From: Candidatus Auribacterota bacterium
GTDB lineage: Bacteria > Auribacterota > JAFGBW01 > JAFGJP01
Length of the DNA stretch: 64,000 nucleotides
Assembly (NCBI GenBank): GCA_023144635.1
Contig: JAGLFH010000062.1
Location: 1-64,000 of the forward strand
Direction of reading: 5' to 3'
In this document: piece after piece, positions 37,276-55,542 of the stretch
Layout: each line of letters begins with the position of its first letter
Numbering within the stretch: the first letter of the stretch is position 1
Position numbers and translations under genes: made by a program
The notes under the pieces: generated by a model
Databases searched by the model: none
Told to the model about the DNA's origin: nothing
The model's input: the letters and a program-made list of their open reading frames with translations, nothing else

Positions 37276-37989
37276 TTATTTTTCACTATTTCTTAGAATA
37301 ATTCTATCAGACTCTTTGGTCCATTCCAATAATATACGGTCTAATTCTTCACTAGTAAGCTTTTTATCTTCTTCTTTAAAAATAATTGGTTTACCAATTG
37401 AAACCATACATTTTGAAAAAGGTTTCGGGAAAATATATTTGCACCATGTCTTTTCAATTATCCATACATTTTTTGCTGTTGTTGCTACAGGTACTACCGG
37501 ATATCCTAATTTTTCTGATAAAAAAAGTATACCCGGCTTTGACCTATATATCGGCCCTCTTGGGCCGTCAACGGCAAAAGCTCCGGAATGTCCATCGGCA
37601 ATCGCTTTTTTCATGTGAAGTAACGCTTCAACACCTTTTCTTTTACTTGACCCTCTAACTATCTTATATCCAAACCTTTTAAGTATTTTTGTCTGTATTT
37701 CACCTGCCCAGCTAACATCTGTCATAATACAAATTTTCCAATCACTAAAATTTACGTTGAGAAGAAATTGCCTGCCATGCCAGAATGCATAACAGACCTT
37801 TGTGCGATCTATTTTTAAAAAATCCGGATGATAGTATACTTTTATTTTTAGCGTCTTATTATAAATATAGATTATAAGATAAGCTAACAAGGAAACAATA
37901 TATGTAAAAAATGACGAATAAGTTATCTTACGTCTAATTTTTTTAAGTTTTAAACGTAACGTTTCTTTTTTTTCCTGATTGTTTTCCAT
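37276..37989 (-). CDS. Lysophospholipid acyltransferase-like protein (DUF374)
   Basis: The 237-aa protein has one N-terminal membrane segment (FTYIVSLLAYLIIYIYN) and then the DUF374/LPLAT pattern: VCYAFWHGRQFLL (the H in the HX4D-like catalytic region), MTDVSWAGEIQTKILKRFGYKIVRGSSKRKGVEALLHM, AFAVDGPRGPIYRSKPGILFLSEKLGYPVVPVATTA and SIGKPI. DUF374 members are related to LpxL/PlsC acyltransferases and are thought to acylate lipid A or other envelope lipids. It is cotranscribed with the TerB-like gene upstream (12-bp gap) and the small membrane protein downstream (5-bp gap). The acyl acceptor is unknown. Confidence 0.85.
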   Translation of the reverse strand: MENNQEKKETLRLKLKKIRRKITYSSFFTYIVSLLAYLIIYIYNKTLKIKVYYHPDFLKIDRTKVCYAFWHGRQFLLNVNFSDWKICIMTDVSWAGEIQTKILKRFGYKIVRGSSKRKGVEALLHMKKAIADGHSGAFAVDGPRGPIYRSKPGILFLSEKLGYPVVPVATTAKNVWIIEKTWCKYIFPKPFSKCMVSIGKPIIFKEEDKKLTSEELDRILLEWTKESDRIILRNSEK

Positions 37990-39437: not shown

Positions 39438-40232
39438 TCATTTCTGTGTTTTTCCGTGGTTAATTTTATCTTTTTTATTTTTTTTAAACATTCCATTTCT
39501 AAAAAAGTGATCAACCTGATCCTGTACTTTTTTATCATTCATAATAAATGTGTGGGTGCTGTGCACTTTAATAAAATCTTTCATACCGCTTACTTTTGCT
39601 CTTTCTACAGATACTGCACCATCATCCTCGCCAGGTATCTTTGAAGAAAGAAAAGGTAAAACGCTTTTATTTCCTGCTATAACACCAAGGTCAAACTGGA
39701 CATTACCTAATGCCATAGGAATACTGTCCGGATCCGTTCCAAGCTGCCATGCAGTTGGTCCGGCAATCCATTTACAGAAAGTTTTATTTTTCAGCCAGTC
39801 GGCTATTTCACTTCCCTTATTCGGCGGCGCGAGCATTACAACACGACCCGTTCTTTTATTTTTTTTGTCCTTTAAATAATATCTTACAACAATGCCTCCA
39901 AGAGAATGAGTTACAAAGTTTATTTTTTTATTTGTATCTTTACACTCATCTTTTATTACTTTGTCTAATTTTATAGATACTTTATCAATATCATGAATGA
40001 CAGAAGCATAACCAAAATTTATAACAATATATCCTTTTTCATTAAGATACTTCTCCATTTTTTTCATAGAAATAGATGTTCTTCCAAGACCATGAAGTAA
40101 AACAACATATTCCTTTGATTCGCTATTTGCATTTTTGCTCGTTTGACTGCATGAAGAATATTTCCATACAGATAATGAAAAAACCGCGATTATTGTAATA
40201 GTTAACAATATTAGTTTTTTATTTCTTTTCAT
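39438..40232 (-). CDS. Lipase-like alpha/beta hydrolase, exported
   Basis: The 264-aa protein has an N-terminal signal or anchor (LILLTITIIAVFSLSVWKYSSC). The catalytic Ser lies in FVTHSLGGIVVRYYL (THSLGG), with the oxyanion strand VVLLHGLGRTS, an Asp in EDDGAVSVERAK and a His in KVHSTHTFIM. It resembles PGAP1/EstA-like triacylglycerol lipases. The final residues (KDKINHGKTQK) are encoded by the edge of a dispersed repeat, so the original C-terminus may have differed. It starts 41 bp after the epimerase gene with GGAGAG upstream. There is no terminator between them, so it may be the ninth gene of the MarR-headed operon and act on the lipid made there. Confidence 0.82.
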   Translation of the reverse strand: MKRNKKLILLTITIIAVFSLSVWKYSSCSQTSKNANSESKEYVVLLHGLGRTSISMKKMEKYLNEKGYIVINFGYASVIHDIDKVSIKLDKVIKDECKDTNKKINFVTHSLGGIVVRYYLKDKKNKRTGRVVMLAPPNKGSEIADWLKNKTFCKWIAGPTAWQLGTDPDSIPMALGNVQFDLGVIAGNKSVLPFLSSKIPGEDDGAVSVERAKVSGMKDFIKVHSTHTFIMNDKKVQDQVDHFFRNGMFKKNKKDKINHGKTQK

Positions 40233-40273
40233 TTTTCTCTCCTAAATTAATAATCACCTATTCTAGTCCTTTT

Positions 40274-41308
40274 TTAAACACAATGTTGTTTCATTAAAAG
40301 AACAGCCTGCTTGCGTGTTACAATATTCTCATTGTTTTTTTGAAAAATATCCTCCATTTTTTTACTGCTGAAATCAAGGTTTTTAGAAACTGAAAACAAT
40401 CCATAAAAAGAAGGCTCGTAAATCGGATACATCATGTTAAATATATTTGAGATCAAAGAACTTATTGTTCCCGCAAACCATCCTAAAATAAAAGGAAGTG
40501 TGACGCTTTTAATATTAGATCTCTTCGGAATAAATATATCTATTATCATCCTGTAATATTCATCGATCCCAGTTTTTTCTCTGTCAATAATATTAAAGGA
40601 TTCCCCGAGAGCATCTTCATCTTTTACAGCAAGATAGATCATGCGACTGACATTTTCTATATAAGCAAGAGGCCATCTGTTCTGTCCCCTCCATTTTCCA
40701 AAATGTATTATGAAAGGAGAACTGTTCAAATATTTTATAACCCTCGGCAAAATAGTTCTATCATCAGGCCCCCAAACGGCCGCAGGCCTAATAATTACAT
40801 ACCTATTCTTTTGAAGCTTTGATCTTATATAAGCCTCAGCTTTGATCTTATATTCCGGATAGGGATTTTTAAGATTATTCTCTAACGCTTCTGTTTCATC
40901 AGCATTTTCAAAATCCTTTATCCCATAGACATCCGTTGTAGAAATAAAAATAAGTTTATCTATTGAAAACCTCTCCAAACATTCCACAATGTTTTTTAAA
41001 CCGTTATAATTAGTCTTTTGGAATTCCCTATTATGCCCTATATCAGATGCACGTCCTGCGCAATGGACTACAGCCTTTATTTGTTTTTTATTAACATAAT
41101 GCTCAAGCACTGCTATTAATCCTTCTCTGCTTTCAATATCTCCATAAATAAGATCCATCTCATTATTCTTTCTAAATTTTTTAAATTCTTCAGGAACTTT
41201 CTTGTGTATTAAAGAGACTACTTTCCAGCCTCTCTTTATAAATTCTTTTGCACAGTTCTTTCCTATAAAGCCTGATGCCCCTGTAATAAGTACTCTTTTT
41301 TTATCCAT
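40274..41308 (-). CDS. NAD-dependent epimerase/dehydratase-type reductase in the amino-lipid cluster
   Basis: The 344-aa extended SDR has VLITGASGFIGKNCA (G10-G16), AVVHCAGRASDIG, LIFISTTDVYG and YPEYKIKAE (YxxxK catalytic pair). RPAAVWGPDDRTILPRV and RWPLAYIENV follow. A hydrophobic C-terminal stretch (LPFILGWFAGTISSLISNIF) suggests membrane contact, as in steroid/sphingoid-type dehydrogenases. It lies 26 bp after an alpha-oxoamine synthase. In known bacterial ceramide pathways (for example Caulobacter CerR) a reductase of this superfamily acts with serine palmitoyltransferase, so 3-keto reduction is a reasonable guess. Sugar epimerisation is the alternative. Confidence 0.85.
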   Translation of the reverse strand: MDKKRVLITGASGFIGKNCAKEFIKRGWKVVSLIHKKVPEEFKKFRKNNEMDLIYGDIESREGLIAVLEHYVNKKQIKAVVHCAGRASDIGHNREFQKTNYNGLKNIVECLERFSIDKLIFISTTDVYGIKDFENADETEALENNLKNPYPEYKIKAEAYIRSKLQKNRYVIIRPAAVWGPDDRTILPRVIKYLNSSPFIIHFGKWRGQNRWPLAYIENVSRMIYLAVKDEDALGESFNIIDREKTGIDEYYRMIIDIFIPKRSNIKSVTLPFILGWFAGTISSLISNIFNMMYPIYEPSFYGLFSVSKNLDFSSKKMEDIFQKNNENIVTRKQAVLLMKQHCV

Positions 41309-41334
41309 AACTTTTAACCGATCATAATTGTATG

Positions 41335-42612
41335 TTAAACTATTACTTTTTCTATTCTTCCTATATCTGCCAAAACTCTTAACACATAATCAAGGTCTTC
41401 TATAGAATGTCCCGCCATCATACTCATCCTCAAACGGCATCTTTTTTTTGCAACAGCAGGATAAGCAACAAAGTTCATAAAAATCCCTTTCTGATGAAGA
41501 TATTTTGTAATATTTTTCAATTTTGACTCATTTCCTATCATAATAGGAATTATTGCAGATCGTGTATCTCCTATATCAAACCCCAGAGCTTTTAGGTTTT
41601 TAATCATATAATTAATTTTTATCCACAGCTCTTTTCGAAGAGCCACATCTTTTTCAAGAATATTAAATACTTCAATAAGTCCTGCTATTACAGGAGCAGG
41701 GATAGATGTAGAAAAAAAATATGGTCTTGCATAATACCTTAAATAATCTATCATCTCTTTCGAACCTACTGCATATCCCCCTATAGCACCCGGAGCTTTA
41801 CTAAGAGTCCCTATAGTAATATCAATCTTTCCTTCCAGATCAAAATATTCTGCTGTACCTCTTCCATTAGGCCCTATAACACCAAGCGAATGTGCTTCAT
41901 CTACCATAACTCTTGCACCATAAAATCTGGCCAGTTCAAATATTTTATCAAGCGGAGCTATATCGCCATCCATAGAAAAAACCCCGTCTGTAATTATTAG
42001 CATCCCTCTTTGCTTATTTGAAAGTTTTTTTAAGATTTTCTCTAGATGATACATATTTCTGTGTGCATAATTATACATTTCTGCTTTAGATAGAAAACAG
42101 CCGTCAAATATAGATGCATGGTTAAACATATCATTAATGATCACATCTTTTTCCCTTACAATTCCTGAAATTGTACCTATGTTTGCAGCATAACCAGTTG
42201 GAAAGAGTATTGCATCTTCTGCTCTATAATATTTGGCTATTAACTCTTCGAGTTTCAAATGGAGATCTGTTGTTCCGGCAAAAAGAGATACTGCACCTGT
42301 TCCATATCCGTATTTTTTAGCAGCTTTAATGCTTGCTTTCACAACACGAGGGTTATATGTAAGTCCTAGATATGAATTTGAACCTAACATGATCATTTCC
42401 TTTTCAAGTCCGCTTAAAGGGTCAGCAATAGGAACACGCGTTTTACTTGCCGATAATAAAGGACGCCTGAAAAAGAAATTGCCATCACTCTCTTCTTTTT
42501 TTAGTACTGCCTGAAACTCTTTTGTCTTATGAAAAAGATCTGCGCTTGAAGTTTCATAACAATCTATCCAAGTTTTCTCTTTTTTTTCCATCAACAGTGT
42601 CTGATATGTCAT
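41335..42612 (-). CDS. Alpha-oxoamine synthase (serine palmitoyltransferase/KBL/BioF family)
   Basis: The 425-aa PLP enzyme shows GSNSYLGLTYNPRV (78-90), YGTGAVSLFAGTTDLHLKLEE, FPTGYAANIG, NDMFNHASIFDGCFLS (His165 stacks on PLP), MVDEAHSLGVIG (Asp238, His241) and IGTLSKAPGAIGGYAVG (Lys272, Schiff base). The family condenses an amino acid (Ser, Gly or Ala) with an acyl-CoA or acyl-ACP, releasing CO2. The ~45-residue N-terminal extension and the TLSKAPGAIGGY loop fit serine palmitoyltransferase-like or polyketide-type members better than BioF, and no biotin genes are nearby. Neighbouring lipid kinase and SDR genes support a lipid product. A good ribosome site (AAAAGGAG) precedes the ATG. Confidence 0.88.
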   Translation of the reverse strand: MTYQTLLMEKKEKTWIDCYETSSADLFHKTKEFQAVLKKEESDGNFFFRRPLLSASKTRVPIADPLSGLEKEMIMLGSNSYLGLTYNPRVVKASIKAAKKYGYGTGAVSLFAGTTDLHLKLEELIAKYYRAEDAILFPTGYAANIGTISGIVREKDVIINDMFNHASIFDGCFLSKAEMYNYAHRNMYHLEKILKKLSNKQRGMLIITDGVFSMDGDIAPLDKIFELARFYGARVMVDEAHSLGVIGPNGRGTAEYFDLEGKIDITIGTLSKAPGAIGGYAVGSKEMIDYLRYYARPYFFSTSIPAPVIAGLIEVFNILEKDVALRKELWIKINYMIKNLKALGFDIGDTRSAIIPIMIGNESKLKNITKYLHQKGIFMNFVAYPAVAKKRCRLRMSMMAGHSIEDLDYVLRVLADIGRIEKVIV

Positions 42613-42635
42613 AATAATTTCTCCTTTTAAGTTAG

Positions 42636-43826
42636 CTATAAAGCTTTTCCATAGCAGTTCAAACTATTTTCGCTGTCACACATTACAATACATTCATTAC
42701 AATTTCTGCAAATTGACCTTACGTTAATATTTTCTTTTAATTTTTTTCCAAGATCAGGTTCACATATTAAAGGACGGCTTAGAGAAATAGCATCAGCATG
42801 ATCGTTTCTTAAAATATCATCCATGACTTTCTTCTCGCGTAATCCGCCTACAAGAATAATAGGTATATTTGTGTTTCTCTTTATTTCTTTTGCAAAAGGA
42901 AGATTATAGTTATCTTTATATGTTATAAATCCTTTTTTCCACTGTGGAAAAATAAAATATTGCCAGAATTTTCTTTTTAAAAGATTGTAATTTTTGAAAA
43001 GAATATTGTGCTCAAATACTTTTTGTATAGGAACGGTTCCTCTAAAAATATTAAAAGCAGCATCCATTGTCCCATAACTTATTTCAAAAGCTTCAATCCC
43101 TACATTTTCCAGTTTTTTAATATAATCAAAAGTATTTTCTATTTTTAAACCATATTTATCATCATCTGCAGCACTTATTTTCACAAACACCGGAAAAGAA
43201 TTACCGCATTTGTCTTTTATATTTAAAATTGTTTCTCTTAAAAATTCTGATCTGTTCTTTCCCCATCTATCGTTGCGTTTATTAATATGGGGTGACAAAA
43301 ACTGATGTATAAGATAACCGTGTGCAGCATGAATCTGTATACCGTCAAAACCTGCTTTTTGAGCACGTTTTGCTGCATCACCAAACTCATTAATAATCTG
43401 CTTTATTTTTTCATCATTTAAAGCAACAGGTTTTTCTTTAAAATAGAGCGACCTTTTTGTTGATGGTGAAACAACCGGTAGACCTGTAACTTTTTTTAAG
43501 GTCTGTCTTCCCGCGTGAGCTATTTGCATGACGAGTAAGGTTTCCATAGAAATGGATTTCACATAAGATACGATATCTTTCCAGTAATCTATTTTATCAT
43601 CACTATCAATACCACATTGATGTGGCTGCATAGCACGACCTTCTTGACTTATAAAACAAAAACCGGTAATTATCATACCCACATCATTAGTCGCAAGATC
43701 CTTATAGATATCTTTCAAACCTTTTAATGGATTTCCATTTATATCGCCCATACCTTCGTATGTTGCTGATCTTACCAACCGGTTCTTCGAAGTAATGTTT
43801 TTCAATTTCCATTCATTAAAAAGCAT
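42636..43826 (-). CDS. Old-yellow-enzyme family NADH:flavin oxidoreductase with terminal Cys cluster
   Basis: The ~396-aa FMN TIM barrel has LKNITSKNRLVRSATYEGMGD, VMQIAHAGRQT, KAGFDGIQIHAAHGYLIHQFLSPHINKRNDRWG (His-His substrate residues), VFVKISAADDDKYG, PIILVGGLREK and ADAISLSRPLICEPDLGKKL. The C-terminus ends in SICRNCNECIVMCDSENSLNC, the place of the [4Fe-4S] cluster in 2,4-dienoyl-CoA reductase-like enzymes. The FAD/NADPH domains that usually follow are absent. It should reduce an activated C=C bond. The start is ATG at 43826 with AAAGGTGAT upstream; a GTG at 43835 is possible. It sits between the ThiL-like and oxoamine synthase genes. Confidence 0.88.
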   Translation of the reverse strand: MLFNEWKLKNITSKNRLVRSATYEGMGDINGNPLKGLKDIYKDLATNDVGMIITGFCFISQEGRAMQPHQCGIDSDDKIDYWKDIVSYVKSISMETLLVMQIAHAGRQTLKKVTGLPVVSPSTKRSLYFKEKPVALNDEKIKQIINEFGDAAKRAQKAGFDGIQIHAAHGYLIHQFLSPHINKRNDRWGKNRSEFLRETILNIKDKCGNSFPVFVKISAADDDKYGLKIENTFDYIKKLENVGIEAFEISYGTMDAAFNIFRGTVPIQKVFEHNILFKNYNLLKRKFWQYFIFPQWKKGFITYKDNYNLPFAKEIKRNTNIPIILVGGLREKKVMDDILRNDHADAISLSRPLICEPDLGKKLKENINVRSICRNCNECIVMCDSENSLNCYGKAL

Positions 43827-43837
43827 AATAATCACCT

Positions 43838-44818
43838 TTATAAAAACAACTTCTCTGTAAGAGTTATAATGTCTTTAATATAAAGTTTTATATCTTTGAC
43901 TTCTCTTGGATCAGTAAGCACGCTTTCATGCATTATTAAGTTATCTCTATTTCTTTTTTTATACAGAATATTGCCATCTGCTGATTTTCTAAAACATCCT
44001 ATCTTTTTAAAGGTGCCTTTTTTGAATTCGTCCTCAAAGTCATAGGGAACAAAAAAAAGCAGTTCATATTCTCCAGCAGAACCAAAAAGAAAGGCTTCTT
44101 TCAAAATATTTTTTCTGTTTGATATTTCCAGGACCTTTTTGTCATACGGGATAGCATCAAGATCAATTACTATTTCAGTATTTTTATTAATACTGCTTAG
44201 TGTTTCTATCGCATTTATAAGACCATCACTGGTATCAATACATGCTGGAACATATTTTTTTAATATTTCTGTTTCCTTTATCCTGCATTCAAGTAAAACC
44301 TCTGGTTTTTCATAAAAAAAAGAAGCATTTACATCACCAATTGTACCTGTTATTCCAACAAAACCTTCTTTATACGGTATAACTCTTGTCATCAATTTAT
44401 TTATATCATCCAGTATTCCTATTGCAGTACAGGTGTATCTCCAATCTTTGCCGTAGCCTACATCTCCTCCAATACAGTAGCAGCCAAAAGCATCAAGAGA
44501 CTTTTGTATGCCAACTGACAGGTCTTTAAGAAATATTTCTGACATAATATCTGTTGAAACAAAAGAATGAGTTATAAATTTAGGTAACGCACCGACCGCT
44601 AAAAGATCACTCATTGCAGCAGTTATAAGATTTCTTCCCAGATCCTTTGGATTTAATACAGGAAAATGATCTTCACTTGAAAAATCATCCATGTTAACAG
44701 CTATAATTGTACCGTTAATATTTATTATCTCTGCATCTGTTTGATTAAATTCATTTATTTGAAAACTGCTCTTTTTTAATCCACTTTTTAGAGCAAATAT
44801 AATATCTCTTTCCTTCAT
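43838..44818 (-). CDS. ThiL-like (AIR synthase-related) ATP-binding enzyme
   Basis: The 326-aa protein has the ThiL/PurM two-domain signature: AVNMDDFSSEDHF in place of GDDAA, AAMSDLLAVGALPKFI, GCYCIGGDVGYGKDW (GGD), VPACIDTSDGLINAIETL (IDxSDGL) and FGSAGEYELLFFVPYD (usual GGEDYELLF, with Asp replaced). ThiL phosphorylates thiamine phosphate, but altered metal-ligand positions and the absence of thiamine genes suggest a different, perhaps cluster-specific ATP-dependent reaction. It overlaps the lipid kinase gene by 4 bp and lies 2 bp before the next gene's GTG/ATG region, so it is firmly within the operon. Confidence 0.78.
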   Translation of the reverse strand: MKERDIIFALKSGLKKSSFQINEFNQTDAEIININGTIIAVNMDDFSSEDHFPVLNPKDLGRNLITAAMSDLLAVGALPKFITHSFVSTDIMSEIFLKDLSVGIQKSLDAFGCYCIGGDVGYGKDWRYTCTAIGILDDINKLMTRVIPYKEGFVGITGTIGDVNASFFYEKPEVLLECRIKETEILKKYVPACIDTSDGLINAIETLSSINKNTEIVIDLDAIPYDKKVLEISNRKNILKEAFLFGSAGEYELLFFVPYDFEDEFKKGTFKKIGCFRKSADGNILYKKRNRDNLIMHESVLTDPREVKDIKLYIKDIITLTEKLFL

Positions 44819-45732
44819 GATACTGCTCCTATCAAATTAACAGCCCTTTCTTTAATATTTATTTCAACTGGAAAAAGCCCTGTTGGATCACCATCACATT
44901 CAGCTTCAACTAAGTCAGAAGAATTAAAATTCAGTTGAGATATCATTTCACCGGTAAAGCACTTCTCATTAATGATCTTTCCGCTATATATTTTTGGAAG
45001 CATAAAAAGCAATTTGAAACGGTTTATCCCTGAAAAAGAAAAAAGAAGAAGTTTTCCGTCACTAGAAGAAATAGAACTATTTAATTTCAGACCAGAAGCA
45101 AGATAAGGGTTTTTAGCAATTGTTATATTAAATACATCTTTTAAATCACAAATTTTACCATTATGAGATAATGTACATGAAAACGGCTTATACGTAAGAA
45201 TACTAATAACTGAAGCTAATAAAGTACCTGCAAAATCACCTAAATACTTTCTGTATATATTTGCACGGGATGCAACATTTACTCCAAGCCCTAGATTTGT
45301 ACTGCAGCTAAAATAACGTAAATTATTATTATGATCTTTCATGAATCCAACATCTATTTTTTTAACATTACTTCTTAAGAGATGGTCTATCGCTTTTTCG
45401 GGAATTAAAGGCAATTGATGATACTTGCAAAAATCAGGACTTGTTCCTGAATAAAGTATTCCTAATAAAGCATTATGAGCATTACCAAAATTGTCAAAAA
45501 ATCCATTTATGACCTCATTTATGGTCCCGTCTCCTCCTACAGCAACTATTGTATTATAACCGGATGCAAGTGCTTTTTTTGTAATGTGTGTACCATCATA
45601 ACGTTTAAGAGTAAAAGCATGATCAAAATCAATTTTCTTTTTATTAAGAAGTTTCATATAATCAGCTATTTTCTTTTTACTTTGAAAATTATTTGAACTT
45701 GGATTACAAACTAAAAAATATTTTCTTTTCAT
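44815..45732 (-). CDS. Diacylglycerol/sphingosine kinase-like lipid kinase
   Basis: The 305-aa protein has the DAGK catalytic domain: FLVCNPSSNN at the N-terminus, NTIVAVGGDGTINEVINGF (nucleotide loop, about 74-92), LLGILYSGTSPDFCKYH (replacing the usual PxGTxNDFA), KKIDVGFMK and STNLGLGVNVASRA. The C-terminal domain shows VEAECDGDPTGLFPVEI (DGE-like). Enzymes of this fold phosphorylate the hydroxyl of diacylglycerol, ceramide or sphingosine. It overlaps neighbouring genes by 4 bp on both sides (ATGA-type junctions). Together with the oxoamine synthase it points to a phosphorylated lipid product. The substrate is not determined. Confidence 0.88.
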   Translation of the reverse strand: MKRKYFLVCNPSSNNFQSKKKIADYMKLLNKKKIDFDHAFTLKRYDGTHITKKALASGYNTIVAVGGDGTINEVINGFFDNFGNAHNALLGILYSGTSPDFCKYHQLPLIPEKAIDHLLRSNVKKIDVGFMKDHNNNLRYFSCSTNLGLGVNVASRANIYRKYLGDFAGTLLASVISILTYKPFSCTLSHNGKICDLKDVFNITIAKNPYLASGLKLNSSISSSDGKLLLFSFSGINRFKLLFMLPKIYSGKIINEKCFTGEMISQLNFNSSDLVEAECDGDPTGLFPVEINIKERAVNLIGAVS

Positions 45733-47024
45733 CGGTATATTCCAAGTTTTTTGTATAATGCTGTTTCCCTGCCCTTATCCCATTTACTTATAAAAGTCTT
45801 TGTTATTTCCCATGGAACAGGAGTTGTTTCAATGTTATGTTTATTTATTACTTCATTAATAAATGATGCTTTTGTACAGCATAACCAAGAGGAGCCGGGA
45901 ATTTTAAAAAAAGATCTCATCCTGCGAAATATCGTTATAAAATCTTCATCTTTTACGTTTCCAAAAGATATGTTTAAAAACTCACAAGGCTGTACTTCAC
46001 CGGAAGATCCTATATAAAACCTGTCAACACCTCCTGCCGTGCATCCAAATATGTCTTCGCTTTCTTCAAACACCTGTGCGGAAAGTGATGGATGATCTTT
46101 ATATACTCCTTTTCCATTATATTGAATATGATATTTTCTCAATCTTTCTATAAGTGAGGAGTCATTAAATTCATCTTTCTTGCCAAGCCAGGCTCCAGCT
46201 GATTTTCCATGAATGATCTGAACATACGAACAATCAAGCTCATAAGATAGCTCCATCATATCTTTAATACCATTTCCTAAAATATTTTCCGGTGACGGAC
46301 AACAGTTAATAGCTGTAAATATTTTATATTTATTGAAAAGATGTATCGCTTCGCATGCTTCCTCAAAGGAACCCTTTATGCCTGTAAATCTATCATAAGC
46401 CAAAGGATCAGCTATATGTATAGAGACCATTACTCCGCTTATTCCTGCGCTTGCAAGTTTTTTAACAGTAGCCTCCTTCACACCATAACCTGTTGTGTTA
46501 AGCCAGATCTCTGATCTATCATCTATTGAATTCATAAGCCTCAATAAACGCTCAAGCTTAAGCAGCGGCTCCCCGCCTTCAATATCAAACATGCTTACAC
46601 CAATATCCTGCATTGAATGTGCAGTTTTGATCAAAGTCGCTACATCAATCTCATCATTAAGATCTTTTTGCTGATAACAATGGGGACATTTATACATACA
46701 TGCTTTGGTCATTGAAAAAACAACAGTTGCAGGCCCAGGTTCATCACGTAACAATTTTTCCAAAGTATAAAAAAAAGATCTTGTAGGATATGCAGGTATA
46801 TATAAATGGATTTTATACTTTTCACCAAGCCTTACTATTTTGTTATGGCGGACTACTTTAAGAAAAATATATGCCCGGTAAACAAATACAATATATTTTT
46901 TTAGACTTATCTCTCCTTTGAGCATTTTTACAAAAAAATGGATTACAACATGTAATGCTATACGAATATAAAAAATATATTTTTTAAATCCGGTAATAAA
47001 AACATTGTTCTTTTTATCTTTCAT
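45729..47024 (-). CDS. Radical-SAM enzyme with SPASM-like C-terminus
   Basis: The 431-aa protein has an N-terminal amphipathic/hydrophobic region (about 10-60) that may contact the membrane, then the radical-SAM motif CMYKCPHC (CxxxCxxC, about 109-116) after PGPATVVFSMTKA. FDIEGGEPLLKLERLL (GGEP) and LNTTGYGV follow. The C-terminal Cys set (FGCTAGGVDRFYIGSSGEVQPCEFLNISFGN, then SWLCCTKA) fits a SPASM/twitch domain binding auxiliary [4Fe-4S]. It uses S-adenosylmethionine radical chemistry, perhaps on the lipid or its head group. It overlaps the lipid-kinase gene and is preceded by the UbiA gene 14 bp away. Confidence 0.88.
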   Translation of the reverse strand: MKDKKNNVFITGFKKYIFYIRIALHVVIHFFVKMLKGEISLKKYIVFVYRAYIFLKVVRHNKIVRLGEKYKIHLYIPAYPTRSFFYTLEKLLRDEPGPATVVFSMTKACMYKCPHCYQQKDLNDEIDVATLIKTAHSMQDIGVSMFDIEGGEPLLKLERLLRLMNSIDDRSEIWLNTTGYGVKEATVKKLASAGISGVMVSIHIADPLAYDRFTGIKGSFEEACEAIHLFNKYKIFTAINCCPSPENILGNGIKDMMELSYELDCSYVQIIHGKSAGAWLGKKDEFNDSSLIERLRKYHIQYNGKGVYKDHPSLSAQVFEESEDIFGCTAGGVDRFYIGSSGEVQPCEFLNISFGNVKDEDFITIFRRMRSFFKIPGSSWLCCTKASFINEVINKHNIETTPVPWEITKTFISKWDKGRETALYKKLGIYR

Positions 47025-47038
47025 ATTTAAAACCCTTT

Positions 47039-48010
47039 TTACATTTTGTTATCTGAATATAAACCAAACAAAAAACCAATAAAGATATATGCTGCTATAT
47101 ATAAATACAAGGCCAGTTCTTTATTAAAAAGAGCTATCATCATAACCTGACCACACGTGCATGCACGAAAATTTGTAACTAATGAAAAATATGCTTTTTT
47201 GCCCTTTGGAAATTTATAAAAAAGCACACCTGTCCATATTTGAAGAAAAAGAGTCATTATAAACAGGAAAATAAAAACTTCGTTAAAAGATGCTTCTATC
47301 AACCCGAATCCTTTTAAAGTCAATAATGCAATTGATGGCAAAAAACTTCCCAATACAGCTGTTTTTCTTGATTTTTCAATGCCCTGAAGAACTACTGCAG
47401 TTACCTTTCCTGATTCCCGATCACCTATATAATCTTTAAAATACGTATAGTAAGTCATAAGTCCGTTTAAAAGAGCTACCATAAAAAGTACACTTAAACG
47501 GCTTGAAGTAAAAAGAACTTCTATTTCAGGACAAAGAGCAAGGTATCCATAGGCAGTGCACATAGATATCATCAGTCCAAAGACTATATTTCCTAAAAAA
47601 GGCACTCCTTTTGCATATTCATATATTATGTTAAGAAGTATTCCTCCGAAAAGAGGGATCAATGCCCATAATGATAAATATGCCGTTATAACAGCAGAAA
47701 AAACCACAAGTACAAATGATAAGAAAAGAGATGCAGGAATATTCAGTTCACCTGTAACCATAGGACGTTTTGGAGCATTGATACTGTCTTCCTTCAGCCC
47801 AAGATAGTCATTTATTATCTGATTAATTCCCCAGCTTAAAAAAAGTATTATAAGTATTATTACTGACTTAATAAGAGATACCGATTCAGGGTAAAGGTAA
47901 CGGCAAAAAGCTACCCCTATCCATCCGGCAATTCCCGTAATAAAGGCATAATAAAGCCTCATTGATTTAATATATGCCTTGATAAACTTATGTAAATCTT
48001 TATAAATCAT
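47039..48010 (-). CDS. UbiA-family prenyltransferase
   Basis: The 323-aa integral membrane protein has eight to nine hydrophobic segments. The first Asp motif is GINQIINDYLGLKEDSINAPKRPMVTGEL (NDxxxxxxD, about 61-90), the second TYFKDYIGDRESGKVTAVVLQG (about 190-212). UbiA enzymes transfer a prenyl group to an aromatic ring or polar lipid acceptor, including geranylgeranyl-glycerol phosphate and chlorophyllide. The acceptor here is unknown and no polyprenyl synthase lies nearby. It is the first biosynthetic gene after MarR (23 bp), with AAGGTG as ribosome site. Because it shares the operon with an oxoamine synthase and lipid kinase, a prenylated or ether-type lipid is possible. Confidence 0.9.
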   Translation of the reverse strand: MIYKDLHKFIKAYIKSMRLYYAFITGIAGWIGVAFCRYLYPESVSLIKSVIILIILFLSWGINQIINDYLGLKEDSINAPKRPMVTGELNIPASLFLSFVLVVFSAVITAYLSLWALIPLFGGILLNIIYEYAKGVPFLGNIVFGLMISMCTAYGYLALCPEIEVLFTSSRLSVLFMVALLNGLMTYYTYFKDYIGDRESGKVTAVVLQGIEKSRKTAVLGSFLPSIALLTLKGFGLIEASFNEVFIFLFIMTLFLQIWTGVLFYKFPKGKKAYFSLVTNFRACTCGQVMMIALFNKELALYLYIAAYIFIGFLFGLYSDNKM

Positions 48011-48033
48011 ATTTTACACCTTTTTATATTTTT

Positions 48034-48501
48034 TTAAGAATCCGCAAAACCAATCCGTAGTTTTTTTGTAAGCCTTATAAGCTCTTTGTATTCTTTTTCT
48101 GAAAATGCTGACATTATCTTCTGAACTTTTTTTTCATATAGTACATCAAATTTATCTATAAGTTTTTTACCTTTTGAAGTACATATTATGTGATAACTTC
48201 TTCTATCATTTTCAACTTTATTTCTCTGTATCAGGCCTCCCTTTTCCATTCTATCCACAAGGCCGGTAATATTTGACTTATCGACAAGCAATCTCTCGCT
48301 TAAATCATTTTGTGTTACAGGAGAATTCGAGTATTTTATTATCATCATTATGTTAAATTGAGCATCTGTTGCAAAATCAGGCTTAAAAAAATATCTGGAT
48401 TCCTTTTTTAACAATACACCTGTCCACCAAACACTTATAAGAGCCTCATGCGCTTTGGAATTAAAACGAAGAGGCAAGTCAAAATCATTCCTTTTCACCA
48501 T
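48034..48501 (-). CDS. MarR-family transcriptional regulator of the lipid cluster
   Basis: The 155-aa protein has the winged-helix MarR fold: TDAQFNIMMIIKYSNSPVTQNDLSERLLVDKSNITGLVDRMEKGGLIQRNKVENDRRSYHIICTSKG (about 52-118), with flanking dimerisation helices. MarR proteins are dimeric repressors released by small ligands. It is the first gene of the leftward operon 48501-39438. Its promoter is overlapped by two inverted repeats of the size MarR proteins bind, indicating autoregulation and control of all downstream genes. The ATG has AAAAGGAG seven bases upstream. The ligand may be a product or substrate of the encoded pathway. Confidence 0.9.
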   Translation of the reverse strand: MVKRNDFDLPLRFNSKAHEALISVWWTGVLLKKESRYFFKPDFATDAQFNIMMIIKYSNSPVTQNDLSERLLVDKSNITGLVDRMEKGGLIQRNKVENDRRSYHIICTSKGKKLIDKFDVLYEKKVQKIMSAFSEKEYKELIRLTKKLRIGFADS

Positions 48502-48516
48502 AAATCATCTCCTTTT

Positions 48517-48533
48517 AGTTGACTCATACAACT
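48517..48533 (-). promoter_or_regulatory. MarR operator candidate, downstream of -10
   Basis: On the minus strand AGTTGTATGAGTCAACT, inverted arms AGTTG/CAACT. It covers the expected transcription start, between the -10 box and the marR ribosome site. It matches the arms of the site at 48549-48564. Confidence 0.6.
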
Positions 48534-48562
48534 ATTATAATTCACAACAGTTGAGATGTCAA
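48534..48562 (-). promoter_or_regulatory. Consensus sigma70 promoter of the MarR-lipid operon
   Basis: Minus strand: TTGACA (48562-48557), exactly 17 bp, TATAAT (48539-48534). The marR ATG is 33 bp downstream of the -10, giving a leader of about 26 nt. Confidence 0.88.
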
Positions 48563-48564
48563 CT
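48549..48564 (-). promoter_or_regulatory. MarR operator candidate overlapping -35
   Basis: AGTTGA-N4-TCAACT, a perfect 6-bp inverted repeat that includes the TTGACA box. A repressor bound here would block RNA polymerase. Confidence 0.68.
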
Positions 48565-52895: not shown

Positions 52896-53777
52896 TTACA
52901 GTCTTCCAATAGTACAATTTTGGCAAAGTTTCATGCTTTTCTGATTACCATCAACATGCAGTCTTCGTAATTGCTTATATGATTTTCCCTGCCAGATATC
53001 TGAAAGCGCTTCTTTTGTAGAATCACCAAGTATCACTTCTCCATCATAATCAAGACAGCAAAGCGCTACCCTTCCATCCATTAGAACAGTCATTGTCCTC
53101 CATAATCTTGCGCAAGGTATTTTAGCCTGAACTTTTTCAAGAAATGTTTTTTTGTTCATTTCCTCATTTGCCCAGTTATGATAACAGGTTATATGTATTG
53201 AATCTACCCGTGCTTTCCATTTTTCTTTTAACATCTCTGCTTCATGCCGGTTTTTTTCTAATGCCACAAAAACAAGAGATACCTTAGGTGATTTTAAATC
53301 ACCCCGTGCTTTTATAAGGTTTTCTATGCCCTGAATGACTTCCTCAAAGATAAGTTTTTTTCTTATGGATTCAAAAGTCTCTTTGGTTACTCCATCCATA
53401 CTGATCTTTACTTCATCAATACCTGCCTCTATTATTTTCCTTGATATTTCCTCTGTCATCAATGCAGCATTTGTAAATATTTTAGGCTTCATTTCTTTTT
53501 CTTTTGCATATGCGATCTTCTCAATAAGAGTTTTGTCTAAAAGAGGTTCTCCGTAGTTATGAAGATGAACCTTTGTCACTCCCATGTCATATGCCTGATC
53601 AATTAGACTTTTGTATAATTCCATTTCCATCACACCGGTCTTACGCTTCATCTTTGACCGGGGACACGTTGTACAATTTGCATTACACAAGTTTGTTGTC
53701 TCTATCCTCAACACTGGAGGTTTCTTTTGTATCCTGCTTTTTAAGTAACACGATATAACTGAATTAATTATTTTCAT
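52896..53777 (-). CDS. Radical-SAM/SPASM enzyme in the glycan locus
   Basis: The 293-aa protein has LRIETTNLCNANCTTCPRSKMKRKTG (CxxxCxxC, about 31-38), VTKVHLHNYGEPLLD (GEP), KIFTNAALM, DEVKISMDGVTKETFESIRK and a C-terminal SPASM set (CARLWRTMTVLMDGRVALCCLDYDGEVILGD...LCQNC). It carries two or more [4Fe-4S] clusters and performs S-adenosylmethionine radical chemistry, perhaps on a sugar or peptide. The gene starts one base beyond the stop of the upstream glycosyltransferase-kinase fusion, so the two products are made together. The substrate is unknown. Similar enzymes occur in many LPS/surface-glycan clusters. Confidence 0.9.
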   Translation of the reverse strand: MKIINSVISCYLKSRIQKKPPVLRIETTNLCNANCTTCPRSKMKRKTGVMEMELYKSLIDQAYDMGVTKVHLHNYGEPLLDKTLIEKIAYAKEKEMKPKIFTNAALMTEEISRKIIEAGIDEVKISMDGVTKETFESIRKKLIFEEVIQGIENLIKARGDLKSPKVSLVFVALEKNRHEAEMLKEKWKARVDSIHITCYHNWANEEMNKKTFLEKVQAKIPCARLWRTMTVLMDGRVALCCLDYDGEVILGDSTKEALSDIWQGKSYKQLRRLHVDGNQKSMKLCQNCTIGRL

Positions 53778-53778
53778 T

Positions 53779-55542
53779 TTACCTTACCGAATAATAAAAT
53801 TTTAGGTTTTTCTTTTTGAACATCTTTTTTGTCATAAGATTAATACGCTTTATCCTTTTTTTCGCTTTTCTGTCCAACTTGTCAATATTCATACATTTCT
53901 TAAAAAAATAGATCCTTTCTTTAAGAGAAATGATCGAAAGATCAGGAAAAGATTTATTTAACTGTGCAAGACCTTTTAATATACATCGTTCAAATAAAGG
54001 AGGATCAATTACTACATTTTCAAAATCTATCAAATTAATACTAAAAGGTGTTTTAGTATCTGACCAGTCAATTTTTACAAGGATATTACTTGCTTTAAGG
54101 TCCCGGTGAATAACACGTGATGAATAAAGCTTCCTGAAAACTTCAGCAATTGAATCAAAGATCTTTTTCTTCATCTCTTTATAAAGCAATAGATTGTTTC
54201 CGCATTTTTTCCTGATCTCATCAAAAATAAAATTAAGCACTTTCAATTTTTTATCATGTAAGGTAAACAATCTGCCAAGCTCCTTTGATCTTGCCTTAAC
54301 AGAATAACCTAATATTTCAGGAATAGGAATTTTAAGACTTTTAAGAACAAAAGCACCATAAAATGCTCTTTCCGCTATGGGTGGTAAAAATGGTATTCTT
54401 CTTTTATTTCTGTAAAGTTTTATATTTACAGGAATGCCACCTGCTATAACTACTGATGTAAGCGAAAAAGACGTATCCTTAATTATCTCAGCTTCTTTTT
54501 TCAAAATTTCGGCAGAAGATGTAAAATTTTCCTGACAATCTTTAAGATCTTTTCTAATAAACCGGTATCCGAAATCACTTTTTACCTTCACAAAAAAATC
54601 CTGTCCCTTAAAAACACCTGTAAACAATTTATCTGTTTTTTTCCATCCTTTATCGGAAATAAAACTTTTGTAAAGCTTTGATTTAAAACGAAGTTTAGGC
54701 AAAACAAAAAAAGTGATCATATTTAAAAAAGAATATACGGCTGCTTTTCTGTAAAAACGGATTATCATTTTTCTTCGGATCGGATAATATAAAAACTCCG
54801 GTAAATGTTTTTTTAAAAAAAGAAGCTGTGAAGTAAGAAATATCTTACGGTATTTTAAAAGGTCGTTTTTCGTACTCTTTCCTTTAAGATGTATACATCT
54901 TGCATCTTTAATAACAATGATCCGGTACCCCTGTTTCCTACATCGAAGACAAAAATCAGTTTCTTCCAAAAAAAAGAAAAAATCTTCATCAAAGCCTCCC
55001 ATTTTTTCAAAAATCGACCCGTTTACCATCATACATGCCCCTGTTACAGCATCTGTTTCTTGTATTGTTTCAGGGAAAACATTCATTTTTTTCTTTTCAT
55101 AATATAAGGGTATAAAAGTAAATTTACCAGACATACGGTCTGTTACATAGACTGGAAAACGTGAAAAGGTCCTCTGCAAGCTACCGTTTTTATTTACAAG
55201 CTGAGGAGATGCAAGAGATATCTCGTTTGATGCAATAATAATATCATATAGCTTCTCAACGCATCCTTTTTCAGGGAAAGCATCTGTATTTAAAAAGAGA
55301 TAAGCCTTCGCAGTAAATTCTCCGGCAGCTAAATTGCATGCAGCCCCAAATCCAATATTACTGGTATTAAGGATTTTTCTTCCCATAAACCTGGAAGTTA
55401 AAAATTCGCGGCTTCCGTCAGTAGATGCGTTATCAACTACAATTATTTCAAATGGTACTTTAATACTAATACCATTCAAATTCTCTATGCATCGTTTAAG
55501 AAGGTCTTTTGTATTCCAATTAATTATAATAATAGCAAGCAT
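53779..55542 (-). CDS. GT2 glycosyltransferase fused to a lipopolysaccharide-kinase-like domain
   Basis: The 587-aa protein has an N-terminal GT-A domain (about 1-235): LAIIIINWNTKDLLKRCIENL, IIVVDNASTDGS, LFLNTDAFPEKGCVEKL (DxD-like), AVTGACMMVNGSIFEKMGGFDEDFFFFLEETDFCLRCRKQGY. This is the rhamnosyltransferase-like GT2 group. A linker (about 240-310) follows. The C-terminal kinase domain (about 320-560) resembles the WaaP/InaA/Rio family: FVKVKSDFGYRF, VIHRDLKASNILVKIDW (HRDLKxSN) and INLIDFENVVI (DFE for DFG). One chain could thus transfer a sugar and phosphorylate the core. The downstream radical-SAM gene is 1 bp away. Confidence 0.88.
   Translation of the reverse strand: MLAIIIINWNTKDLLKRCIENLNGISIKVPFEIIVVDNASTDGSREFLTSRFMGRKILNTSNIGFGAACNLAAGEFTAKAYLFLNTDAFPEKGCVEKLYDIIIASNEISLASPQLVNKNGSLQRTFSRFPVYVTDRMSGKFTFIPLYYEKKKMNVFPETIQETDAVTGACMMVNGSIFEKMGGFDEDFFFFLEETDFCLRCRKQGYRIIVIKDARCIHLKGKSTKNDLLKYRKIFLTSQLLFLKKHLPEFLYYPIRRKMIIRFYRKAAVYSFLNMITFFVLPKLRFKSKLYKSFISDKGWKKTDKLFTGVFKGQDFFVKVKSDFGYRFIRKDLKDCQENFTSSAEILKKEAEIIKDTSFSLTSVVIAGGIPVNIKLYRNKRRIPFLPPIAERAFYGAFVLKSLKIPIPEILGYSVKARSKELGRLFTLHDKKLKVLNFIFDEIRKKCGNNLLLYKEMKKKIFDSIAEVFRKLYSSRVIHRDLKASNILVKIDWSDTKTPFSINLIDFENVVIDPPLFERCILKGLAQLNKSFPDLSIISLKERIYFFKKCMNIDKLDRKAKKRIKRINLMTKKMFKKKNLKFYYSVR

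Follow-up and report, generated by a model that had tools for sequence, protein, structure and literature searches.

Bacterial ceramide synthesis (Spt, CerR and bCerS), the phosphate-to-diphosphate kinase ThiL, archaeal digeranylgeranylglyceryl phosphate (DGGGP) synthase and the salvage of phytol to tocopherol are described systems with which we compare a nine-gene operon of a Candidatus Auribacterota bacterium (assembly GCA_023144635.1). The operon lies on the minus strand within positions 1 to 64,000 of contig JAGLFH010000062.1, the whole stretch of DNA analysed and referred to here as the window (Table 1). With the ceramide pathway, the locus shares an oxoamine synthase with affinity to serine palmitoyltransferase (SPT) and an extended SDR. 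It differs in having no bCerS (none of the nine genes is an acyltransferase by Pfam, and the search for bCerS was confined to this locus) and in adding a UbiA-like membrane enzyme, a ThiL-like kinase, an OYE-family oxidoreductase and a radical-SAM enzyme. In phytol salvage, an alcohol kinase, a phosphate kinase and a prenyl-type transferase act in series (VTE5, VTE6 and VTE2; PMC11926002). Two successive kinases feeding a prenyl-type transferase may be a logic common to both systems, although the kinase families differ from the DAGK-type and ThiL-like kinases of the window, where the chain apparently comes from the oxoamine synthase. A literature search in open-access PubMed Central found no paper on the gene cluster. 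The operon is one copy, of the form termed type C below, of a widespread and apparently undescribed lipid-biosynthesis cluster, the product of which is most likely an undescribed membrane lipid that combines a fatty acid with an amino acid.

The distribution of the cluster was surveyed by scanning GTDB species genomes with the window UbiA protein, which yielded 80 loci with flanks of up to 10 kb on each side. Profiles were built from these loci for nine families: UbiA, OYE, acyl carrier protein (ACP), oxoamine synthase, DAGK-type kinase, ThiL-like kinase, beta-ketoacyl synthase, SDR and radical SAM. In the fetched DNA, at least five families were present at approximately 70 of the 80 loci, far more than expected by chance, UbiA together with the synthase, both kinases, the SDR and the radical-SAM enzyme at 53, and all nine at 35; counts from a UbiA-probed scan are no census, and many incomplete loci are cut by contig ends. 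Approximately 18 phyla have at least five families at one locus, and many of the carriers are strict anaerobes. Because UbiA alone served as the probe, the proximity of the other eight families counts as independent evidence, and the set is almost certainly a conserved biosynthetic unit. Seven window enzymes belong to it, namely UbiA, radical SAM, the DAGK-type and ThiL-like kinases, OYE, the oxoamine synthase and the SDR. An earlier, sequence-only reading of the window had allowed that these genes might prove scattered elsewhere; instead, they are strongly linked across loci, and the ThiL-like, radical-SAM and OYE genes, which it could assign to no pathway, are members of the conserved set. 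That reading remarked on the missing ACP; ACP and beta-ketoacyl synthase, both absent from the window copy, occur in most copies of the cluster.

Two types of the cluster can be distinguished. Type C has the order UbiA, radical SAM, DAGK, ThiL-like, OYE, synthase, SDR, without ACP or beta-ketoacyl synthase. This window order is identical in Lentisphaerota and Kiritimatiellota loci, and loci from Verrucomicrobiota and Armatimonadota and one from Bacteroidota follow it except that OYE is missing or broken. In the main type, the synthase gene immediately precedes DAGK; DAGK precedes the ThiL-like gene in both types. Type C forms one side of a branch in six of six quick gene trees, built from cluster members only and without an outgroup (UbiA 91, radical SAM 100, DAGK 99, ThiL-like 100, OYE 94 and SDR 100). 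Identity to the window UbiA ranges from 49 to 60% over both types. The window SDR is 38-46% identical to other type C SDRs and approximately 24% identical to those of the main type, a value below that of an unrelated window SDR to the main type (percent identity is the sole measure here, with no tree of reference SDRs). When reference sequences are included in the synthase tree, the seven type C members cluster at 100/99, and main-type synthases form a separate clade with a long stem (100/100). A single clade of all cluster synthases was rejected by the approximately unbiased test (p 0.0041), which calls for caution given the long branches and a constraint chosen after the tree was viewed. The common core (UbiA, radical SAM and both kinases) is thus paired with two separate synthase-reductase sets, which is the strongest hint that the entry substrate is an aminoketone, probably reduced.

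The UbiA fold of the membrane enzyme was confirmed by an AlphaFold2 (AF2) model (pLDDT 94.1), the best match of which is archaeal DGGGP synthase (6m31; TM 0.63/0.71). The two enzymes have in common the fold and the second motif, DxxxD (D193 and D197), whereas the first motif, NDxxDxxxD, reads NDxLGxxED in the window family, with a Gly (G71) in place of Asp that is invariant in 33 sequences. A nearly invariant E131 directly follows the conserved Tyr130, at the position of S140 in AfUbiA. In AfUbiA, D72, the counterpart of G71, holds the first Mg2+, and its Ala mutant lost binding of geranyl diphosphate (GPP; PMC4106721). N67, R18, K134, D193 and D197 are kept and correspond to Mg2+ and diphosphate ligands of AfUbiA (PMC4106721), with AfUbiA positions transferred through an alignment of E. 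coli UbiA and the Mj DGGGP synthase, not from the AfUbiA sequence itself. Because these other ligands remain, the enzyme probably still binds diphosphate, in an altered mode.

The ThiL-like kinase has the ThiL fold and most of the acidic residues for ATP and Mg2+; its AF2 model (pLDDT 91.1) best matches AaThiL (3c9u; E 2e-23), ahead of HypE, SelD and PurM. Its family shares with ThiL most acidic metal-binding residues and differs in carrying GECGEYEL or GSAGEYEL where E. coli ThiL has SGGEDYEL. With 110 bits, the window protein scores below the TIGR01379 equivalog (184.15), and a further ThiL homologue of the window genome, on contig C51, is the probable housekeeping ThiL. Analogy with known kinases suggests that the DAGK-type and ThiL-like enzymes act in succession, from alcohol to phosphate to diphosphate.

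The gene set, its conservation, the two lineages with exchanged synthase, the enzyme families and the motifs were directly shown, and from them we infer substrates, step order and regulation as follows. The oxoamine synthase would join a fatty acyl thioester to a small amino acid (serine, if SPT is a guide) and so yield a long-chain alpha-aminoketone, the ketone of which would be reduced by the SDR. The hydroxyl would be phosphorylated by the DAGK-family kinase and receive a second phosphate from the ThiL-like kinase. The UbiA-like enzyme would then transfer the alkyl group from the lipid diphosphate to an acceptor, with release of pyrophosphate; OYE and the radical-SAM enzyme would alter the chain or head group anaerobically, and MarR would repress the operon. 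That the oxoamine synthase builds the lipid is quite likely. The use of an aminoketone-derived lipid diphosphate as the alkyl donor of UbiA is a tentative model. With somewhat more reserve still, we propose a new class of membrane lipid, carried into approximately 18 phyla by the transfer of a single cluster. For this lipid, a long-chain precursor derived from an amino acid would be activated to a diphosphate by the DAGK and ThiL-like kinases and would be the non-isoprenoid alkyl donor for a UbiA enzyme whose metal site has been rebuilt. The seven-enzyme cluster stays together in Desulfosporosinus, Bacteroidales, Ignavibacteria and candidate phyla, its window enzymes reach no curated family model, and no paper on it was found, all of which points to a common yet unseen lipid. 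A ThiL relative that acts on lipids would, to our knowledge, be new biochemistry, and so would a UbiA that uses a non-isoprenoid lipid diphosphate. The carriers include the cultured Desulfosporosinus hippei, D. lacus, D. nitroreducens, Petroclostridium sp. X23 and Herbivorax sp. ANBcel31, so the product is accessible to direct search.

Several points weigh against this scheme. The diphosphates that UbiA enzymes cleave are normally allylic, which a reduced sphingoid diphosphate is not. The superfamily of ThiL also includes HypE, SelD and PurM, which have other ATP chemistry. With G71 in place of AfUbiA D72, the enzyme may have altered or abandoned diphosphate chemistry. Some copies have no OYE found next to them (L095, L125 and L133).

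The altered metal site also bears on the alternative that survives best, in which UbiA puts an ordinary polyprenyl group on an aminoketone-derived lipid and the kinases serve either to salvage a prenyl alcohol or to act on the head group. Such a prenylated amino-lipid would fit the nearest UbiA folds and sequences, which are those of archaeal DGGGP synthase and chlorophyll synthase, and the intact second Asp motif and basic residues. However, the Asp for the first Mg2+ is replaced throughout the 33 sequences, and the only further groups to recur at the loci, outside the nine families, are small and lineage-specific, with no prenyl-diphosphate synthase identified among them. We regard this alternative as unlikely.

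The affinities of the synthase lead to a second alternative, a sphingolipid pathway proper, in which a sphingoid base and its phosphate are made for ceramide-type or lysosphingolipid membranes. Type C synthases join a Thioclava ACP-linked synthase (97/94) and then Sphingobacterium SPT (8guh; 98/85), in a tree with a small reference set and one SPT reference only. KBL, BioF and HemA fall outside this grouping and have their own support (93/97). The window synthase scores 367.8 bits against a cut-off of 640 for the SPT equivalog (NF047600), 367 against 426 for 8-amino-7-oxononanoate synthase and 398 against 460 for glycine C-acetyltransferase. Tree and equivalog scores together rule out a BioF, KBL or HemA identity, and the grouping with BioF or KBL that would have counted against the sequence-only reading did not appear. 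No second oxoamine synthase was detected in the window genome. The nearest non-cluster relative of the window synthase in the tree lies on Thioclava plasmid NZ_CP135444.1 (L145), within a cluster of ACP, AMP-binding, ketosynthase and phosphopantetheinyl-transferase genes. The SPT grouping, the GSNSYLGL motif of Sphingobacterium SPT in the window synthase, and SDR and DAGK families that match CerR and sphingosine kinase in kind are all consistent with a sphingolipid pathway. Nevertheless, two Bacteroidota genomes (Odoribacter-labelled G069 and Prolixibacteraceae G070) encode a canonical SPT (60% and 61% identity) together with a cluster synthase at a different place (27-28%), so the cluster is not simply ceramide synthesis. 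In addition, SPT is not a close relative of the main-type synthase, and UbiA, ThiL-like, OYE and radical-SAM enzymes have no place in such a pathway, which we consider improbable.

Slightly less probable again is a pyrrole-lipid, comparable to the Red/Pig alkylpyrrole routes, in which the synthase condenses a beta-ketoacyl-ACP with an amino acid and the product cyclises, giving an alkyl-pyrrole or pyrrolyl-methanol. In its favour, main-type copies usually include ACP and a beta-ketoacyl synthase with a complete active site (C163, H298 and H335), and a pyrrolyl-methyl diphosphate, as a good UbiA donor, would give the activated carbon required by UbiA chemistry. Against it, type C and several Ignavibacteria and Spirochaetota copies are without both proteins, and no pyrrole-specific enzyme was identified. 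The sequence-only reading had envisaged a sphingoid-like or prenylated lipid. Its oxoamine-synthase-based lipid pathway is supported, whereas neither a plain sphingoid nor a plain prenyl lipid is supported in that form: two genomes have a separate canonical SPT, the UbiA is without the Asp needed for GPP binding in AfUbiA (PMC4106721), and the lipase-like gene falls outside the conserved unit.

In the preferred scheme, thioester supply is no problem, because ACP and beta-ketoacyl synthase genes are present elsewhere in the window genome. Its contig C51 also holds a stand-alone ACP (L177:1468-1719) that follows an adenylate-forming-enzyme-like open reading frame (ORF) and precedes two glycosyltransferase-like ones (assignments made by eye), possibly an acyl supply or another cluster. 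Both redox enzymes suit anaerobes. The OYE is a short form with a C-terminal CxxCxxCxxxC, the cysteines of which probably hold a 4Fe-4S cluster, and the radical-SAM protein conserves the three canonical cysteines and the SPASM-like C328 and C347.

The window genome (3.14 Mb, 93% complete) belongs to the same order as G002, and these are the only two of 44 Auribacterota genomes with close ThiL-like relatives; a radical-SAM search agrees. The two hold different cluster types and therefore most likely gained the cluster separately. Flanks vary among copies, with MMPL transporters in Riflebacteria/Ozemobacteria, a helix-turn-helix gene in Bacillota and MarR in Omnitrophota. At four Riflebacteria/Ozemobacteria copies (L086, L097, L099 and L100), MMPL-family transporters directly follow UbiA-OYE, which suggests product export and fits a lipid product. 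A synthase-DAGK fusion suspected in Riflebacteria from a neighbour of 761-770 aa was rejected, this neighbour being an MMPL transporter. Three Riflebacteria genomes retain a ThiL-like relative. In one Neomarinimicrobiota genome, UbiA-OYE is separate, and the synthase, DAGK, ThiL-like, beta-ketoacyl synthase and SDR genes are on another contig. L101, with UbiA, OYE, SDR and radical SAM only, was rejected as a minimal system; a deletion or assembly fault is likelier, because OYE and SDR are both short at the junction. Peptoclostridium litorale DSM 5388 has a close UbiA homologue (L106:9959-10984) with the rest of the cluster not adjacent and no strong ThiL-like relative in the genome. A plasmid search found no UbiA homologues.

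In the window, an ORF check found nine minus-strand ORFs forming one operon, with MarR first and the lipase-like gene last and intergenic gaps, from MarR on, of 23, 14, -4, -4, 2, 23, 26 and 41 bp. The coordinates, order and spacing reported from the sequence, including the maximal gap of 41 bp and the two 4-bp overlaps, were all confirmed, and Pfam agrees with each of the nine family assignments. None of the nine proteins reaches the cut-off of any listed NCBIfam model.

Table 1. Genes and predicted control elements of the operon (window coordinates).
Feature	Position	Strand	Evidence
MarR-family regulator, operon head	48034..48501	-	PF01047 5.5e-14
UbiA-superfamily membrane enzyme	47039..48010	-	PF01040; NDxLGxxED (G71 for Asp), D193-D197 intact
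Radical SAM/SPASM-like enzyme	45729..47024	-	PF04055, PF13186; CxxxCxxC 109/113/116, C328-C347
DAGK-family lipid kinase	44815..45732	-	PF00781 6e-23; PDB match DgkB; GGDGT and GTSPDFC motifs
ThiL-like kinase	43838..44818	-	Best fold AaThiL 3c9u; D28, D44, D71, GGD119, D195, S197 kept
Short OYE-family oxidoreductase	42636..43835	-	PF00724; C376, C379, C382, C386
Pyridoxal-phosphate-dependent alpha-oxoamine synthase, SPT-side type C clade	41335..42612	-	K272, R395 conserved
Extended SDR (Epimerase/3Beta_HSD), type C subfamily, probable ketone reductase	40274..41308	-	PF01370, PF01073
Alpha/beta-hydrolase, lipase-like	39438..40232	-	PF05057, PF24096
Predicted promoter TTGACA-17-TATAAT	48534..48562	-	Sigma-70-type consensus, 12/12 match
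Palindrome AGTTGACATCTCAACT over -35 box, candidate MarR operator 1	48549..48564	-	Inferred
Palindrome TAGTTGTATGAGTCAACTA just 3' of -10 box, candidate MarR operator 2	48516..48534	-	Inferred

The predicted promoter lies 33 to 61 bases 5' of the MarR start and is preceded by a strong terminator. Both palindromes are built from AGTTG/CAACT half-sites; the number of palindromes is by itself not significant (30 of 300 shuffles). Judging by these sites, the MarR protein may repress its own operon through the two candidate palindromes. Related MarR genes are present at four Omnitrophota clusters. The lipase-like gene is probably co-transcribed with the operon. The sequence-only reading had counted it as a pathway member; it was rejected as such, since no homologue adjoins any other cluster copy. 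Different alpha/beta hydrolases border L101 and L110. The lipase-like gene and MarR have thus been added locally to the conserved unit. A bilirubin-system identity (BilQ, BilR) for MarR and OYE was rejected, with scores far below the cut-offs.

Two neighbouring genes are recorded here. A second radical SAM/SPASM gene (window 52896-53777), unlinked to the operon, stands beside a glycosyltransferase with a Kdo/WaaP-kinase-like domain (53779-55542). Downstream of the operon, past a TerB-domain gene, is a lysophospholipid-acyltransferase-like DUF374 protein (37276-37989), in a linkage not seen at other copies.

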